Of a stretch of DNA of 26,394 nt, positions 5,185 through 26,394 are shown in pieces. The notes beneath the pieces are model-generated. The model ran no database searches. It saw only the letters and a list, made by a program, of their open reading frames with translations, and was not told where the DNA came from. Position 1 is the first letter of the stretch. Each line of letters opens with the position of its first letter. The position numbers and the translations under genes were made by a program. Source of the stretch: a virus; the IMG/VR virus record IMGVR_UViG_3300023235_000112, positions 1-26,394 of that record. One strand, 5' to 3'.

Positions 5185-5337
5185 CTATCTGACAAAATTT
5201 AAGATTGTCTGATAGTCATCCCACGCTAAAGAAAGCGTGGGATTTTCCCTATGTAATTTTATGATAGCTGTGGATTGATTATACAGAGCCCGATAAGCGT
5301 CAGACGATACTGTTTTAGTTATAAATTTTGAATTCAC
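5185..5337 (-). CDS. Mini-ORF (50 aa), possibly the second half of a frameshifted gene
   Basis: GTG 5337-5335 with AAGG five bases upstream, stop TAG 5187-5185. The product starts MNSKFITKTVSSDAYRALYN and contains HRENPTLSLAWDD, a composition that looks coding. It overlaps the upstream 31-codon ORF by 23 bases in the +1 frame, so either two coupled mini-genes or one gene of about 75 codons with a frameshift near 5315-5337. The hairpin that ends the opposing gene lies inside this ORF. Function unknown. Confidence 0.42.
   Translation of the reverse strand: MNSKFITKTVSSDAYRALYNQSTAIIKLHRENPTLSLAWDDYQTILNFVR
5219..5249 (+). terminator. Terminator of the exported-protein gene
   Basis: TCCCACGCT pairs perfectly with AGCGTGGGA across a six-base loop, followed by TTTTCCC on the + strand. 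It lies within a convergent minus-strand mini-ORF. Confidence 0.7.
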
Positions 5338-6579: not shown

Positions 6580-7247
6580 GAAGGAAGTTGAGAAAGGATG
6601 GTATGTATTGTGTTCAAACAAACGATGAATTCATCTCTCTTAAATATAGCTTCTGACAGTGCTCGGGCTGTCAATGTCGTTTCATTGACATCAACTTGTC
6701 TTTTCTTTAGGCGTTCGATAAAATTAACCAATTGAATGCTATCTTTTTCAATAGCTTCGATTATTTCCTTTCGATTTTTTTTAACGAAAGCAAGAATGAA
6801 TGTATTGATTTCGTTCGGTTTCGAAACAGCATAATCTCCCATCTTCTCATGGAAAGCTCTGCTAGCTTCATAGGTCAAAATCAAAACTGGATTTTCATCA
6901 AATGGATATCCCGAATGAACTGATGGGCTTCTAAAAATAGGATTCAAAGTTTTGAAATTCTTCTTAATCCTTCGCAATCGGACGATCTCTGGATTTTCTG
7001 ATTCCTGCAGTTCTTCGTTGATTTTCTTCTTCTTATCTTCGATAAAGATATCGTGCATCGTCCAGATAATCTTTGTTAATACTGGGTCATCTTCCACGGA
7101 AGTTTGCCAATAATTACAAAGAGTCCGGATATCTTTAAATTCTTCAAGAAATTGATCCTCTGAAATGAGAGATGGAAGGATTCCCGTTTCTAAGAATCCT
7201 TTCAAATATTTTTTGATTTTTTCCTTCTCGAAATTAATTATGTTCAT
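6576..7247 (-). CDS. Unknown protein downstream of the VWA gene
   Basis: 223 residues, mostly helical by composition, with Lys/Glu-rich helices and no recognisable motif. The ATG overlaps the end of the VWA/metallopeptidase gene by 14 bases and has only a weak GAAGA upstream, so translation probably depends on the preceding gene. This tight link makes it a candidate third member of the MoxR/VWA module rather than an independent gene. A central block (NPIFRSPSVHSGYPFDENP) is the least helical part. No membrane segment. Confidence 0.65.
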   Translation of the reverse strand: MNIINFEKEKIKKYLKGFLETGILPSLISEDQFLEEFKDIRTLCNYWQTSVEDDPVLTKIIWTMHDIFIEDKKKKINEELQESENPEIVRLRRIKKNFKTLNPIFRSPSVHSGYPFDENPVLILTYEASRAFHEKMGDYAVSKPNEINTFILAFVKKNRKEIIEAIEKDSIQLVNFIERLKKRQVDVNETTLTARALSEAIFKRDEFIVCLNTIHTILSQLPS

Positions 7248-8490
7248 TATTTTCTTCGAAGTATGTCACCAAACCAAATGGAGCTTCCCAATCCTTCTGG
7301 CCGTGAATTAACCAGATCGTGTCTACGTAGTCGGGATCACAATCTGCGAAACCACATAATCCATCAGTGAACATCAAGAATCGATCTGGTTTGATTTCGT
7401 TCTTCTTCATATGATTCCAGTTGATTCCGAAGTTAGTTCCGCCACCACCCTTGATCGTAAAATCTTCGATCCGATTACCGTTCGTTTCGTTGAAGACCAT
7501 CTGCGTTTTACTGTAGACTATATGATCGAACGTCCATACCGTAACCGTGTATTGTTTGAACTGCTGCATTATTCCAGCTACTTCCGAGAGTAAATCAGTT
7601 CCCTGTTGGATTGAAATCGAACCACTCATATCAATCGCCACGGCAACGTTAATTGCCTTTTCTGGAACAGGACCTGGCATGATCCAACCTTGGGTCCAAG
7701 ACCGACGATGTGGATTAATCCAAGAACGATGTGGTTTGAAAGCAGACTCAATCGAAGATCGAATCAATTCTCGCCAGTTTTTACGAGGTTCTTTGAGCGT
7801 TTTGATCATCCGTTTGATTTTTCCCGGTATCTGACCGGCATCACAGGTCGCTTCTGCATTCATGACCGACTGAAAAAATTCCTGCTCTGCCCTCTCAATT
7901 TCATCTGATGACATCGAAGGGAGTTTTGGGAGTGCGTCTATTTCTTCTCCAAGAGTTTCACCATCATCTTCTTCTTGTTTATTATCTTTATCATCACCTT
8001 CTTCAGGATCCATGTGCTGATCCATCGTTGATTTTTTTGGCCATTTTTCGTCTTCAATAATCTTATAGATTTCTTCGGCTGACATTTCCGCGAAACGTTC
8101 GTCATACAACCAAGAAGGCTGAATAGAACCAATGCCTTTAATACGAGTTCCGTCACCTTTGATATATTCTTCGTTCACAATATCATAGTTGATCTCATAA
8201 TCACCTGCCATATTCCAATAATCAGCGTCTCGGCCTTCTCGACGAAGGAAATGACCATGCACACAATGCTTCAATTCATGTACAAACGCGGCGACCCGAT
8301 TATCATGGGTGAGACTCTTGACAAAATCTGGATTGTAGAAGATCCGTTTATAATTCGTTGCTAAGGTTGGAATAGATTTTACCTCTACCAATGGCATTTT
8401 TGAGGCTAACAAACCGTAGAAGGGAAAATTCAACAAAAGATCAATTTTCGCATCTTCTAAGGTCTGTTTAACTGTTGGATCTGCTTTCAT
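7234..8490 (-). CDS. Metallopeptidase-like + VWA domain protein (DUF2201-type), MoxR partner
   Basis: 418 residues from the ATG that follows GGAGG by five bases; a TTG 12 bases earlier is in frame but lies on the Shine-Dalgarno itself. The N-terminal domain (about 1-140) has HELKHCVHGH at 71-80, an HExxH-like zinc-site pattern of the DUF2201 N-terminal putative metallopeptidase family. An acidic Asp/Glu linker (about 160-200) follows. The C-terminal VWA domain (about 275-418) has an intact MIDAS DMSGS near residue 285, GGGGTNF and FTDGLCG. Such proteins work with MoxR-type AAA+ ATPases, and the upstream gene is exactly that. Known bacterial pairs act as metal-dependent chaperone or remodelling systems; the target here is unknown. 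Confidence 0.85.
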   Translation of the reverse strand: MKADPTVKQTLEDAKIDLLLNFPFYGLLASKMPLVEVKSIPTLATNYKRIFYNPDFVKSLTHDNRVAAFVHELKHCVHGHFLRREGRDADYWNMAGDYEINYDIVNEEYIKGDGTRIKGIGSIQPSWLYDERFAEMSAEEIYKIIEDEKWPKKSTMDQHMDPEEGDDKDNKQEEDDGETLGEEIDALPKLPSMSSDEIERAEQEFFQSVMNAEATCDAGQIPGKIKRMIKTLKEPRKNWRELIRSSIESAFKPHRSWINPHRRSWTQGWIMPGPVPEKAINVAVAIDMSGSISIQQGTDLLSEVAGIMQQFKQYTVTVWTFDHIVYSKTQMVFNETNGNRIEDFTIKGGGGTNFGINWNHMKKNEIKPDRFLMFTDGLCGFADCDPDYVDTIWLIHGQKDWEAPFGLVTYFEENNEHN

Positions 8491-13849: not shown

Positions 13850-14440
13850 TTAGTTGATCGCGTCGAGCGGTGTTGAACCTGGATCCAAGACAGTCTGACT
13901 ATCAATGTCTAGTGTTGCATTATCGAAACGAATTGTAGATGTGATAATACGTGCTTCAGATGACGTATAATCCATATCACCGAAATTCAGTGCTTGAATG
14001 AAACATCCTTCAACAAACCATTCTGAAGTAACTCCATCGACGGTGCCATCCATCGTCTGAATGTTCATTGAGAACTTATAAGAACCAGCAGCTCTTTCAC
14101 CTACCTGATTGAAATGATCGAATTGTTTCTGCTGTTGTTCTGCAAATGAACGTAGAACTGAACTATCGGTGATATCACGTACGACTAGTTCAATCGGTTG
14201 CCATTCATATTTTCCAGCGTAATATGCTCTAGAGTTATATCCATGCACGACCTGTTCTTCGAAATTAATGTTTGGAAGGCCAACAGTGTTGGTTTCCAAT
14301 GTCACCGAATTAGAAGAGTTTCCCCCTGCACCAAATTGAGAAAGAAGCACACGAAAACGGTGCTTCTGGACCGGCTGCTTCATACCGATAGCAGTGCCGT
14401 TTAATGGAACGCCAAAACGTCCGAGTGTTCTTTCTGCCAT
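13850..14440 (-). CDS. gp19: Tail tube protein, gp19-like
   Basis: 196 residues, ATG with AGGAGG six bases upstream and a late-type element 31 bases upstream. Blocks HRFRVLLSQFGAGGNSSNSV, VVHGYNSRAYYAGKYEWQPI, LVVRDITDSSV, FAEQQQKQFDHFNQ, then SEWFVEGCFIQALNFGDMDY and TIRFDNA match T4-like gp19 and its marine relatives. It forms the hexameric rings of the inner tail tube. Followed after 20 bases by the tube-fold paralogue and separated from the sheath by an accessory block, unlike T4 where 18 and 19 are adjacent. Confidence 0.92.
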   Translation of the reverse strand: MAERTLGRFGVPLNGTAIGMKQPVQKHRFRVLLSQFGAGGNSSNSVTLETNTVGLPNINFEEQVVHGYNSRAYYAGKYEWQPIELVVRDITDSSVLRSFAEQQQKQFDHFNQVGERAAGSYKFSMNIQTMDGTVDGVTSEWFVEGCFIQALNFGDMDYTSSEARIITSTIRFDNATLDIDSQTVLDPGSTPLDAIN

Positions 14441-15087: not shown

Positions 15088-15663
15088 TTAAATTCCTAAC
15101 GCTTGACGAATCAAGTCTACTGATATTGTGTCACCTTTATATCTAGGTCCTGATATTTTTGTGAATTCGACATTTTCTTCTTCCAGCATTGTTATGATAC
15201 CTTGATCGATATGTTTTGCTTCTTCTTCGGTTTGATTTCTACCAACCGGATCATAAGGCACCGTTCGCTCTAGGAGAAAATTGATATTCTCGTAATGATT
15301 CCACACTTCAAAAATAAATTTTTTATAGAATTGAGGAAAATAATCTGGTGGAACGTAGTGGATTCCTAGTAATAAAGGACTGTCAGAAACTATCCAGTCA
15401 ATTTGTTCTTTTAATCTCCAAAGACGACGATTCTGATTCGCGACGATATAAAGCTGATCTTCTAATTTAGCAATATTCTTATCCCAAGTCACGCTTTTGG
15501 CATATTCTTCGGGGGCTTCTGCCCTAAATCCTCTCATCTTTAAATAATATGTGACACCAAGAGCAGTGGTTGATTTCCCTAAACCCGGCCCACCAAAAAT
15601 ATTTATCACTTTGGCTGATTGTTTCTGTCCAGCTACACTCTTTTCCCATTGATTATTTTCCAT
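15088..15663 (-). CDS. P-loop NTPase, AAA_28 / nucleoside-kinase-like
   Basis: 191 residues. Walker A GGPGLGKST (24-32), a Walker-B-like WIVSDSPLLLG near 90-100, then a possible lid region RNQTEEEAKHID. The layout is that of the NadR/AAA_28 type of kinase-like ATPases commonly found in phage genomes. Candidates for the substrate include nicotinamide riboside or a nucleoside, but there is no motif that decides. ATG preceded by AAGGAAATC. It sits between a methyltransferase and the amber-interrupted gene on one transcript. Confidence 0.75.
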   Translation of the reverse strand: MENNQWEKSVAGQKQSAKVINIFGGPGLGKSTTALGVTYYLKMRGFRAEAPEEYAKSVTWDKNIAKLEDQLYIVANQNRRLWRLKEQIDWIVSDSPLLLGIHYVPPDYFPQFYKKFIFEVWNHYENINFLLERTVPYDPVGRNQTEEEAKHIDQGIITMLEEENVEFTKISGPRYKGDTISVDLIRQALGI

Positions 15664-15672
15664 GATTTCCTT

Positions 15673-15972
15673 TTAAAGTTTTCCAAAATCTGTCATATTT
15701 TTTTGTTCTTGTGAATAGTAAACTTCATATGATTCATTGAATATTGCTTCTTTACATGAATGTTTTTCACCGTCGAAAGTGATAATATAATCACCTGGTG
15801 TCACCCACTACTCTCCATACTCACTTCCTACCACGTCTATTCGCCCTATTATTCCTAGAGTAGTGTGTTTAATCTCAGTCACATTATCTACCTCTTCACC
15901 TGGCCACCATTGCTCAGCAAAGAGAGGAATCGACTTCTTGACAAACATTCCTTTCTTGGGTAATTTATTCAT
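15673..15972 (-). pseudogene. Small conserved phage gene interrupted by an in-frame amber codon
   Basis: ATG 15972, in-frame TAG at 15810-15808 (codon 55), and the same frame continues to TAA 15675-15673. Reading through gives a 99-residue protein. The first part (MFVKKSIPLFAEQWWPGEEV, then HTTLGIIGRIDVV) and the second part (WVTPGDYIITFDGEKHSCKE, then AIFNESYEVYY) together make one unit: the second has the PGDYII...GE...C...F...YE pattern of a known small phage protein family. The frame is unbroken, so the lesion is one base substitution, or the TAG is read as an amino acid. AGGAGAATA precedes the ATG; the start shares one base with the upstream stop (TAATG). See the finding. Confidence 0.75.
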
Positions 15973-16330: not shown

Positions 16331-19300
16331 TTATAGTGTACCAGTATTCACAATTCGAATTGGAATAAAGATGAAGTTGATTGATTTTTGTGGTTCGATT
16401 GCACAATCAAGCCACAACTCGTTCCTATCAATTCTGGTTGGAGTATTATTTTGCAAAGAACAAACCGTAACGAAGTCATACATTGCTTCCTTGGAAACCA
16501 AGTCTGCTAGGTAACGATCAACGGCATCTTTGAAATCAATTCGTGTCGCATTATTATTAAGTTCAAAGAAGTATGGACGAGAAATCCTGTCAAGATCTGT
16601 TCTAATCTGAACTGTCAAACGTGCAACATTTTCACGATCAAGGGCAGATGCTGTGTTGTGCATCGTCTTGTCACCCCAGACAACCAATCCTGCACCAGGC
16701 AAGAACGTATGTGGGTTGATATTGTTATCGTAAATTACATCACGAAGTCCTTCAGACATCAAAGTTGATTGGTATTCACCTTCACTTGTAAGGAAACCTA
16801 CAGAAGCTGCGTTGCTAATAACGCCGCGACGCAGGCCAGCGGCTGATTTCCATGGATAGGAAACGCTATCGGAGAACGCAATTGTGCGCATCTTGACGGC
16901 CGACGGTGGAATCATAACCTCGGATCCATCTAAGTTTGTTCCAAGTGCCCAAGGATAACCCATTGTGCTATACGTGTAACGAGTTGTTCGACCAATTTCT
17001 CCATTACTTGCAGCATTGTTGACATTAGTTGCCCAATTATTGATAGCTGTTCCGTTCGGTGCTAGACGCATTGGAGTATCAGAAACGATAAATGCTGTTT
17101 CCTTTCTATCGATATTTAGAGTTTGAAGTTCGTCTAATAGTTCGACGTAACCTGGAGCAGCGATCAAATTATAACTGATGAACTCAGAACGGATATCTTC
17201 GTTAGCGGCAACGGCTGCAGCAAGTGCCTGCACAATAGAGGCACGCTGTGCTTTGTAACCACCATACATCGAACCGTCCAATTGGTTACCGGAGGAATTA
17301 ATCCAACGATCAACGCTTGGGTTTCCAGATTCTCCTGGATTAGTAAACGTTGTTGATTGACCAACGGTAAAGGTTGTTCCTGAAAGCTGGAAATCAGCGC
17401 CAGAGCCTAAACCAAAATAAGTTGGTTTATATTCCTTTACATTCTGTGTACTTAAACGAGTATTAAACAGTAAGAAACCTGCTGGATAAAGCTGCGGATC
17501 AGGTGCATCTGGATCGACGTAATCTGAAATCACTAGCTCATCACCATCAGTACTGAAGGCCGTATGAGTTGAAGAAGTGTAGCTTGGACCAGCGTTTTCA
17601 CGAGCATCATCAAAGATAATACCAAATGGAGTGGATTGATCTGTCTTATCAATTGCGGTCCAATCCGAAATGCTCGTATCATAACGATATAGAGCAGGAT
17701 AATTGTCTACATCTGAACTGTCTAACCAAATATCCCCGTTGATTAATGCTCCACCACCCGGTGTTGCTTGAGTCGTTGGTTTGGAAGCAGAAATCTGAAC
17801 ACCTTCTGGGTCGAAGTTTGCATTGTCGTTTACAAGACCAACCCATTTCGTTCCGTCAGATACTAACAGGTCGACCACTAAACTGTCATCAAACCATAGA
17901 GTGCCTTCAGGTGCAGCGGCTGATGGTGCAATAGATGCTGCCTGGTAAGTCAATGCTGCCCAGTTTGATTTTTGACCTTCAGTATGACCCGAGTCAACTA
18001 ATGGAGTGCTAGTTATTTCTGCTAGAACGAAAGCTGACCCATCAAGTGAACTGATTCGTAAAGCATTTCCACCGGTGATTGCGGTTTCTGTTGCTTCAAA
18101 TCTACTGCTGATTCCTGCTGTTGAGAAAGCTGCGTTAATATCAATTACTGTCTGAGAATAGCTGTTCGTTTCACCCGTTAGAGTAATGGTAATCGTCGCT
18201 GCTGTTCCGCTTGCGTTGTATTTGAAACTGAACTGATCAGAAGCTGTTACGGTATTTGCCGTATCGTTTACCGTTCCGTCAACATTAAAAGCTGCAATGG
18301 AAGCTAAACGACGGAACACCTGCTGTGCATCACCGTTTTCATCTGGATCATATTGAGTGTAAATATCACCGATACCTAAACCAGTACCGTAAGCAATTTC
18401 TGCTTCGATGTCACCCGCATACCAATTATTGACTTCAGTTGTAAATTGTGCAGTAGAAGAGTTGAACTGTTTGATAACCCAATCTACTCCATTGTTTGGA
18501 GTAGTGGTTTTAATCCAATACGCGTTAGAAGTGGATCCAGCTGGAACACTGCTATGCTTATTGTAATAAAGAGTGACACCTAACGTCGTCCCTTCAACGT
18601 GTCCAGCTAATGTCCATGCTCCCGTTCCATCTGCAAGGACGATGTCAGCGCCTGTTGAATCTGTTAGGACCAGAGTATCACCGCCAGTGATTGAAGCACT
18701 AACCCCGGTTGAACCAGTGATTGCATCGATCCGAGTCTCAACTTCAGAAAGCGTATCTGCGGTCATTGTAGAGGTTGTTGCTGTACCAGAAGAACCGGTG
18801 ACCGTTAGCGTCAAACCATTAAGTCCAGTTGTTGCTGGAGTAGAAACTGCTGTACCAGCAACAACAGTTGGATGAGCCGCTTTCCACGCCGTAGAACCAA
18901 CGATTTCCCAGGTTCCTGCGTTCTTTTCATATAGATAATTGTTTGTCGTTAAGGTAACCAGCGCTAGATTGCCATCTGCACCATATGCATCTAACGGAAT
19001 GTTTCCACCATCGACATCAGACGACGTTGGAAATTTAATAGATGAAGCTGCATCCCAGGCTAGTCCCGGTGTCGCCGAACCATTTGAACGGAAGATACCA
19101 AGAGTAGTTGAAGCCAAATCCCACCAATAAGTTCCATTTGTTGGATCAGCTGTTGGCTCAATTGCAGTTGCCTGAAGTTGGGTGGTGTTGATGTTTGCGC
19201 GAAGAGCATATGCACGTGATGCGATTCCAAGATAGGAATGCATTGCCCAAAGTCCCCATTCATTAAGTTCAGAACCCTGAACAATTGTACCAGAATCTTC

Positions 19301-19522
19301 TGTGAAGGACGGGACACCAAATTTGCTTACTGCGTCACTTTGTGAAGTTACTAATTGAAGGACTTCCGCAGTTGCTGCTGTCGTAGCAGAGGCAACTGAA
19401 ATTGCATCTTCAAGTAATTTATCTTGTGCAGTGACGAAAACAAAAAGAGGAACTGTTCCCTGTCCAGCATCAACGAATTGTGATTCATCCGTTACGGTAA
19501 TTGTCGTCTTTACAGATGCCAT
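16331..19522 (-). CDS. gp18: Tail sheath protein, gp18-like, enlarged
   Basis: 1063 residues, about 1.6 times T4 gp18 (659). The N-terminus (1-120) and the C-terminal part (about 700-1063; MRTIAFSDSVSYPWKSAAGL, FLPGAGLVVWGDKTM, VARLTVQIRTDLDRISRPYF, then NFIFIPIRIVNTGTL) are those of T4-type sheath proteins. Between them lie insertions: a GTYWWDLASTTLGIF unit near 130, two related beta domains of about 100 residues (near 220-317 and 417-517) that share ITGG-(D/N)-x-L...VLA...GHxEG, and two short WLD/WFDD display-like units near 535-620. These probably project from the sheath surface. The protein forms the contractile sheath. Own late-type element and own terminator. Confidence 0.95.
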   Translation of the reverse strand: MASVKTTITVTDESQFVDAGQGTVPLFVFVTAQDKLLEDAISVASATTAATAEVLQLVTSQSDAVSKFGVPSFTEDSGTIVQGSELNEWGLWAMHSYLGIASRAYALRANINTTQLQATAIEPTADPTNGTYWWDLASTTLGIFRSNGSATPGLAWDAASSIKFPTSSDVDGGNIPLDAYGADGNLALVTLTTNNYLYEKNAGTWEIVGSTAWKAAHPTVVAGTAVSTPATTGLNGLTLTVTGSSGTATTSTMTADTLSEVETRIDAITGSTGVSASITGGDTLVLTDSTGADIVLADGTGAWTLAGHVEGTTLGVTLYYNKHSSVPAGSTSNAYWIKTTTPNNGVDWVIKQFNSSTAQFTTEVNNWYAGDIEAEIAYGTGLGIGDIYTQYDPDENGDAQQVFRRLASIAAFNVDGTVNDTANTVTASDQFSFKYNASGTAATITITLTGETNSYSQTVIDINAAFSTAGISSRFEATETAITGGNALRISSLDGSAFVLAEITSTPLVDSGHTEGQKSNWAALTYQAASIAPSAAAPEGTLWFDDSLVVDLLVSDGTKWVGLVNDNANFDPEGVQISASKPTTQATPGGGALINGDIWLDSSDVDNYPALYRYDTSISDWTAIDKTDQSTPFGIIFDDARENAGPSYTSSTHTAFSTDGDELVISDYVDPDAPDPQLYPAGFLLFNTRLSTQNVKEYKPTYFGLGSGADFQLSGTTFTVGQSTTFTNPGESGNPSVDRWINSSGNQLDGSMYGGYKAQRASIVQALAAAVAANEDIRSEFISYNLIAAPGYVELLDELQTLNIDRKETAFIVSDTPMRLAPNGTAINNWATNVNNAASNGEIGRTTRYTYSTMGYPWALGTNLDGSEVMIPPSAVKMRTIAFSDSVSYPWKSAAGLRRGVISNAASVGFLTSEGEYQSTLMSEGLRDVIYDNNINPHTFLPGAGLVVWGDKTMHNTASALDRENVARLTVQIRTDLDRISRPYFFELNNNATRIDFKDAVDRYLADLVSKEAMYDFVTVCSLQNNTPTRIDRNELWLDCAIEPQKSINFIFIPIRIVNTGTL

Positions 19523-25518: not shown

Positions 25519-25546
25519 ATAATAACACATCACTAGAAAAAGTCAA
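25519..25546 (-). promoter_or_regulatory. Sigma70-type promoter of the 233-residue gene
   Basis: Minus strand TTGACT (25541-25546), 16-base spacer, TATTAT (25519-25524), 36 bases before ATG 25483. The TGA stop of the repeat-protein gene is in the -35. Confidence 0.75.
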
Positions 25547-26196
25547 GTGATTAATGCTTTTATTGTTAGGAATTCTTCTCGATTACCTGATTCCCAAGCT
25601 TTTTTCAACGAGGGATCCTCTTCACCCATTTCAGTTGAATAGATGAGTTTATTGTATTCCCACCATTCTTTGGATCCATTTGATCGTAAAATTGCCGGAC
25701 CCTGTTCACGATGACGTTTTCCATTCAGATACCATTTTTTGGTTCCATTTGGCCTTTCAACAGCTGGGCCATCTACTCTATGGAGTTCTCCATCTAACCA
25801 CCATTCTTCATATCCACCTGGCCAAATAAAAGCTGGGCCTTGTTCACGATGTCGTTTTCCATTCAGATACCATTCTTTAGATCCATCTGGTGATATAACA
25901 GCCGGACCATCTTCATTTTGGCGTTCTCCATCTTTCCACCATGCTTTATATCCACCTGGTGATATAACAGCCGGACCTTGTTCATGATGGAGTTCTCCAT
26001 CTAACCACCATTCTTCATATCCATCTGGTGAAATAACAGCGGGGCCATCTTCACGATGGTATTTTCCAAATAGATACCATTCTTTAGTTCCATTTAACCG
26101 TTCAACCGCTGGACCATCTTCACGATGGAGTTGTCCATCAAGTAACCATTCTTTAGATCCATCTTCAAGTTCACTCATTGTTGGTTCACCGGTCAT
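25543..26196 (-). CDS. 23-residue-repeat protein (HREDGPA repeat family), copy 2
   Basis: 217 residues from ATG 26196, which overlaps the upstream stop (ATGA); the ORF could extend to ATG 26247 but would then overlap the upstream gene by 55 bases. It is built almost entirely from about seven tandem units of 23 residues with the pattern P-(D/N)-G-x-(K/E)-x-W-(Y/W)-L-(N/D)-G-x-x-HRE-(D/Q)-GPA-(V/I), then a distinct C-terminal cap ELIYSTEMGEE-type segment (here NKLIYSTEMGEE) plus a helix. Such W/G/HREDGPA repeats occur in phage and bacterial proteins, related to MORN-like or toxin-immunity (YwqK-type) repeats; function is unknown. The 69-bp DNA repeats are imperfect. Confidence 0.8.
   Translation of the reverse strand: MTGEPTMSELEDGSKEWLLDGQLHREDGPAVERLNGTKEWYLFGKYHREDGPAVISPDGYEEWWLDGELHHEQGPAVISPGGYKAWWKDGERQNEDGPAVISPDGSKEWYLNGKRHREQGPAFIWPGGYEEWWLDGELHRVDGPAVERPNGTKKWYLNGKRHREQGPAILRSNGSKEWWEYNKLIYSTEMGEEDPSLKKAWESGNREEFLTIKALIT
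25570..26170 (-). repeat. Tandem imperfect 69-bp repeats encoding the 23-residue units
   Basis: About seven direct repeats, 69 bp apart, seen on the + strand as recurring CCATCTTCACGATGG..GTTTTCC, CCATTTAACCG and ACAGCxGGACC strings. They continue into the upstream paralogue (26290-26394). Confidence 0.75.
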
Positions 26197-26394
26197 GAGA
26201 TCAAAGCCTTCACAGTATCGAATTCTTCTCTTGAACCGAATTTCCAAACTTTCTTCAACGTAGGATTCTCTTCACCCATTTCAGTTGAATAAATGAGTTC
26301 ATCGTGTTCATACCATGCTTTATATCCATCTGGCCATATAACAGCAGGGCCATCTTCACGATGGAGTTGTCCATTCAGATACCATGCGTTGAAT
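26193..26394 (-). CDS. 23-residue-repeat protein, copy 1 (5' end outside window)
   Basis: Only the last part is present, ending at TGA 26195-26193. It has one full repeat (WYLNGQLHREDGPAVIW, then PDGYKAWYEHDE) and the same cap as the next gene, LIYSTEMGEENPTLKKVWKF then a GSREEFDTVKALIS helix. It is therefore a tandem paralogue of the 217-residue gene downstream, joined by an ATGA overlap. The start and the other repeats lie beyond base 26394. Confidence 0.7.
   Translation of the reverse strand, partial: FNAWYLNGQLHREDGPAVIWPDGYKAWYEHDELIYSTEMGEENPTLKKVWKFGSREEFDTVKALIS

Follow-up and report, generated by a model that had tools for sequence, protein, structure and literature searches.

An in-frame amber codon in a variable accessory gene of a jumbo phage lineage that carries CUA-anticodon tRNAs

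The interrupted gene and its surroundings

The DNA analysed here, referred to as the window, is a 26.4-kb viral fragment (26,394 nucleotides, IMG/VR record IMGVR_UViG_3300023235_000112) with a coding fraction of 0.88 and long intact genes. In the region between its tail sheath and tail tube genes lies a small gene interrupted by a single TAG. The features of this region are as follows.

16331..19522, minus strand: tail sheath protein, used as an anchor for the phage lineage
15972..16223, minus strand: upstream gene, 83 aa, matching no known family, with a homologue in contig G001
15811..15972, minus strand: first half of the interrupted gene, ATG start, 54 codons, MNKLPKKGMFVKKSIPLF...EYGE, with a Shine-Dalgarno-like site upstream (-7.3 kcal/mol)
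15808..15810, minus strand: in-frame TAG at codon 55, next base T; a sense codon in 77/77 homologues
15802..15816, minus strand: GGAGAG (15816-15811) and GTG (15804-15802), a possible incidental restart (-6.8 kcal/mol)
15673..15807, minus strand: second half, codons 56-99, WVTPGDYIITFDGEKHSCKEAIFNESYE..., and TAA; holds the conserved family block
15088..15663, minus strand: thymidylate-kinase-like P-loop protein, intact
13850..14440, minus strand: tail tube protein

At the right edge of the window (25543-26247, minus strand) we also observed a 234-aa ORF with about nine repeats of the type EDGPAV...G..EW.LDG..HR.

An initial annotation of this DNA, made from the sequence alone, had described an amber codon followed in frame by 44 sense codons and a TAA, with no other base change needed to restore the gene. 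We confirmed both the coordinates and the single frame: the ATG (15972-15970), the TAG (15810-15808), the 44 sense codons (56-99) and the TAA (15675-15673) lie in one minus-strand frame that runs from 15972 to 15673 and encodes a 99-residue read-through product, with the TAG as the only lesion. The ATG shares a base with the stop codon of the 83-aa gene upstream (TAATG), and the thymidylate-kinase-like gene starts at 15663, nine bases past the TAA. After the TAG there is no further lesion and coding usage is intact. Only in this frame is the codon usage of the second half that of a real gene, with a score of 0.299 compared to -0.199 and -0.541 in the other two, where real 44-codon stretches in the window score 0.076 to 0.362 (5-95 % range).

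To place the window we looked at its tail genes. Among named phages, Phosso (from Sinorhizobium) and Atu_ph07 (from Agrobacterium) have the nearest tail sheaths, at 42-48 %. The tail tube is 74-78 % identical to those of the two closest IMG/VR contigs, G001, of 48.6 kb, and G002, of 29.2 kb; some 36 kb of G001 run collinear with the window. Genomes of 354-378 kb, which we take to be Rak2-like, are more remote, with 40-43 % in the tail tube. The window belongs to a Rak2/Atu_ph07-like jumbo phage, and the interrupted gene sits in a variable island between sheath and tube. In G001 its slot between the 83-aa gene and the kinase holds an unrelated 132-codon gene (L004:2703-3101) with a GTG start and hydrophobic stretches, apparently encoding a membrane protein. 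At the limits used we found no match to the family of the interrupted gene anywhere in G001, G002 or Phosso; this, together with its absence at the site in G001, shows the gene to be accessory. Uninterrupted members are present in two Rak2-like genomes, G003 and G013. The G001 homologue of the 83-aa gene (L004:2469-2710) is broken too, its coding sequence passing into a different frame after about residue 40, so that the island contains a second damaged small gene. In G002 (L003:3-755) and G001 (L004:4593-5654 and 6632-7870) the tail tube gene has apparent mobile-element genes beside it, TnpB-like or repeat-rich and putatively endonuclease-like; the window has none at this place.

A protein family that continues past the stop

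The initial annotation had assigned the two halves to one small phage protein type, with the characteristic block located only after the TAG. Profile searches support this assignment. PHROG 419 covers residues 10-90 of the read-through product (E 1.6e-5), a stretch that spans the TAG, and PHROG 4502 covers residues 53-97 (E 1.4e-5). When the halves were searched separately, the second again matched PHROG 4502 (E 2.6e-5) and the first gave no significant profile match. The PGDYII...GE...CK...IF...YE block lies entirely 3' of the TAG, as claimed. The 99-aa product did not match PF14083 (PGDYG), for which three relatives scored 13-18 bits against a curated cut-off of 27.

Homologues from phages, viral contigs and bacterial genomes follow the pattern KKP..VEA..W ... 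IxTLEGxHxVxPGDWIITGVKGExYPCKPDIFxxTYE, with the motif IxTLEG before the site of the stop and PGDxII, GE, YPCKPDIF and TYE after it. The window protein retains PGDYII, GE, CK, IF and YE and is altered at TLE, at the GV after II and at P72, P75 and D76. It therefore appears to be a divergent family member with changes on both sides of the stop.

We compared codon 55 across 77 homologues, the residue that the initial annotation had singled out for alignment. The column is always sense, mostly His or Met (His 39, Met 29, Leu 3, Gln 2, Tyr 2, Ile 1, Val 1), with a stop in 0/77. None of the 77 ends at codon 54 with a separate gene for the second part, an arrangement that had been named as contrary to an interrupted gene. 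The homologue codons at the site are one change from TAG in 4/77, two changes in 70/77 and three changes in 3/77. Since 70 of them are two changes away, the TAG probably did not arise in a single step from the commonest residues. Our searches found no second copy of the interrupted gene and no close relative in viral contigs; a search with a degenerate DNA pattern that flanked codon 55 and allowed any triplet there gave no match, and the kinase used as bait recovered no close relative. One candidate, L001, was a short match to an unrelated GC-rich phage contig and was judged to be due to chance.

An AlphaFold2 model of the read-through product, built with 38 aligned sequences, has a mean pLDDT of 85 and a pTM of 0.67. 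It consists of one small beta-rich domain with strands at 18-21, 31-36, 40-45, 55-57, 62-66 and 69-73 and a helix at 75-81. Codon 55 falls at the start of a strand in the model, according to which a 54-residue product would lack about half of the strands. A search of the PDB by fold gave a best match no better than E 1.4.

TAG stops and CUA-anticodon tRNAs in the lineage

The initial annotation had also stated that TAG ends no other confidently called gene. In agreement with this, 0/30 long ORFs in the window end in TAG; a 50-aa ORF at 5185-5337, the sole other listed one with a TAG stop, is of doubtful reality. The fraction of long ORFs ending in TAG is 4/50 in G001 and 3/26 in G002, and in the pieces of Atu_ph07 and Phosso that were covered it is 3/19 and 1/17. 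Four Rak2-like genomes and Phosso keep TAG stops at 2-5 %, and at 13 % in a noisy ORF set. A cross-comparison of conserved genes in the window, G001, G002, Phosso and most of Atu_ph07 revealed no convincing single in-frame TAG among the matches listed, which were ranked by support and were mostly antisense frames with several stops. The four Rak2-like genomes, compared in the same way, have 18 candidate in-frame stop sites of all three kinds, TAG accounting for 2/18, and this mixture does not point to TAG. We therefore rejected genome-wide recoding of TAG: the conserved genes compared have no convincing internal TAG and the relatives use TAG as a stop.

We also considered whether back-up stops behind TAG could be a footprint of readthrough. 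In G001 and G002 combined, a further stop follows within 10 codons of the TAG in 7/7 cases compared to 32/70 (Fisher p 0.006). This excess was set aside, the sample being small and several of the seven ORFs mobile-element-like or antisense-like. No excess of back-up stops behind TAG was found in Phosso or in the four Rak2-like genomes. Selected readthrough has thus not clearly left a footprint in the lineage.

No tRNA genes were found in the 26.4-kb window. The nearest contig, G001, carries a CUA-anticodon tRNA (L117 3540-3613, 62 bits; found by ARAGORN, which prints it as tRNA-Pyl, and by Infernal) that falls an estimated 3 kb or so beyond the right end of the window on the collinear map. Phosso has two (L121:6732-6807 and L125:184-259; ARAGORN), and the Infernal scores of the G001 and Phosso tRNAs are 62-67 bits. 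All of the four Rak2-like genomes examined (G003, G005, G007 and G011; L200-L203) have a CUA tRNA, listed by ARAGORN between tRNA-Arg(UCU) and tRNA-Leu(UAA). Atu_ph07 carries a UCA-anticodon tRNA, which reads UGA (L132:114-188), and no CUA tRNA in the tRNA regions covered; its published description mentions the UCA tRNA and names no target. CUA tRNAs have also been reported in other jumbo phages, including XacN1, which has two (PMC5852040), RsoM2USA, which has one (PMC8504454), and the Sinorhizobium jumbo phage AP-J-162 (PMC11242549). CUA tRNAs are thus widespread in this jumbo-phage lineage while TAG remains a stop.

At acceptor positions 3:70 and 4:69 the pairing is non-standard in both the G001 tRNA (L117:3540-3612) and one of the Phosso tRNAs (L121:6732-6804), an unusual trait for such distant phages to have in common. 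The shared oddity marks these two tRNAs as related, and non-standard pairs at two acceptor-stem positions make their activity uncertain.

Origin of the amber codon

The initial annotation had left three options: a recent nonsense mutation, TAG read as an amino acid, or partial readthrough. The recent nonsense mutation fits everything seen and reading of TAG as an amino acid genome-wide does not survive the comparisons above. The presence of CUA tRNAs in most of the relatives examined makes partial readthrough more plausible.

We consider it probable, with reservations, that the TAG is a recent nonsense mutation, possibly leaky, at codon 55 of a variable accessory gene. Under this explanation an accessory gene in the sheath-tube island would have acquired the amber mutation, and recently, since the distal half retains every appearance of coding sequence. 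Translation would normally yield 54 residues that lack the second half of the predicted fold and are probably inactive. The gene would be dispensable, given that a different gene occupies its slot in the nearest relative. If the phage carries a CUA tRNA, some full-length protein may be made, which would render the mutation more tolerable. In line with a nonsense mutation, the two halves form one family, continuous in all 77 homologues, and the conserved genes compared in the window, G001, G002, Atu_ph07 and Phosso hold no further convincing in-frame TAG. In E. coli, termination at UAG is strong when the next base is U. Several points count against a plain nonsense mutation: of the three stops, the one present is that with a cognate tRNA in the lineage; the distal half shows no decay at all; and most homologue codons are two changes from TAG.

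An alternative, possible but in our estimate rather unlikely, is selected readthrough, in which a phage CUA suppressor tRNA reads the TAG and full-length protein is limited to the time or level of the tRNA. Such tRNAs occur in G001, twice in Phosso, in 4/4 Rak2-like genomes, in AP-J-162 and more distantly in XacN1 and RsoM2USA; the G001 copy falls about 3 kb beyond the right end of the window on the collinear map, and none of the 30 long ORFs in the window terminates in TAG. However, the window fragment itself contains no tRNA, other conserved genes have no convincing in-frame TAG, the Rak2-like genomes and Phosso use TAG stops and have no excess of back-up stops, and the G001 tRNA and one from Phosso, with their unusual acceptor stems, may not be active. 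We regard it as unlikely that selection maintains the TAG and that a phage CUA tRNA reads it; if so, this gene would be the first identified target of the suppressor tRNAs found in many jumbo phages whose genomes are not recoded. The nonsense and readthrough explanations overlap in practice: if the phage had an active CUA tRNA when the nonsense mutation arose, the mutation would have met partial suppression from the outset.

It is conceivable that the metagenome contig contains a sequencing or assembly error, or that the assembler picked a minority strain variant. The gene is known from this contig only, and one wrong base would be enough if the true codon were one change from TAG; only 4/77 homologue codons are that close, the rest of the window is clean, and we judge an error quite unlikely. 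The gene may also have been split by a stop and a restart at GTG 15804, three bases past the TAG, giving 54- and 43-residue fragments that may associate. The GGAGAG is suitably spaced before this GTG, and a site of its strength is found at 2.2 % of internal in-frame start-like codons compared to 29 % of gene starts, which at first looked significant. An equally strong site precedes the same codon in 40/77 intact homologues, since the Glu-Gly codons of the family resemble a ribosome-binding site, and we discarded a designed restart on that ground. Furthermore, no homologue is split here and the cut would run through predicted beta-structure, making a functional split highly improbable. Accidental restart at GTG 15804 may occur, with no sign of design.

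Genes with an in-frame nonsense codon that are otherwise intact are reported to be widespread in prokaryotes and often still under purifying selection (PMC7918605). The gene described here resembles them in having one stop, a conserved frame and no other damage, and differs in being known from one sequence. Like XacN1, RsoM2USA and AP-J-162, the phage is a large myovirus in which TAG otherwise serves as a stop; the closest to its lineage by host or sequence are AP-J-162, Phosso and G001. In XacN1, RsoM2USA and AP-J-162, whose CUA tRNAs have no known target, the tRNA has been seen in the phage itself, unlike in the window fragment. The XacN1 study looked for a target by extending translation past 18 amber stops and reported no similarity downstream (PMC5852040), whereas here a known family clearly continues past the TAG. 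A TAG inside a conserved gene and CUA tRNAs in the lineage are also found in the code 15 phages, crAss-like and others (PMC9523058, PMC11210395), in which many genes carry TAG compared to one here; TAG-recoded phAss-1 has 41 ORFs with an in-frame TAG (PMC10607447).

There is nothing unusual in itself about an amber mutation in a phage accessory gene. The comparison also sets limits: in these genomes back-up stops are not generally in excess, and no further in-frame TAG is convincing. The interest of the finding is that the lineage carries amber-reading tRNAs yet stops at TAG, and this gene provides a concrete test case for the role of such tRNAs.
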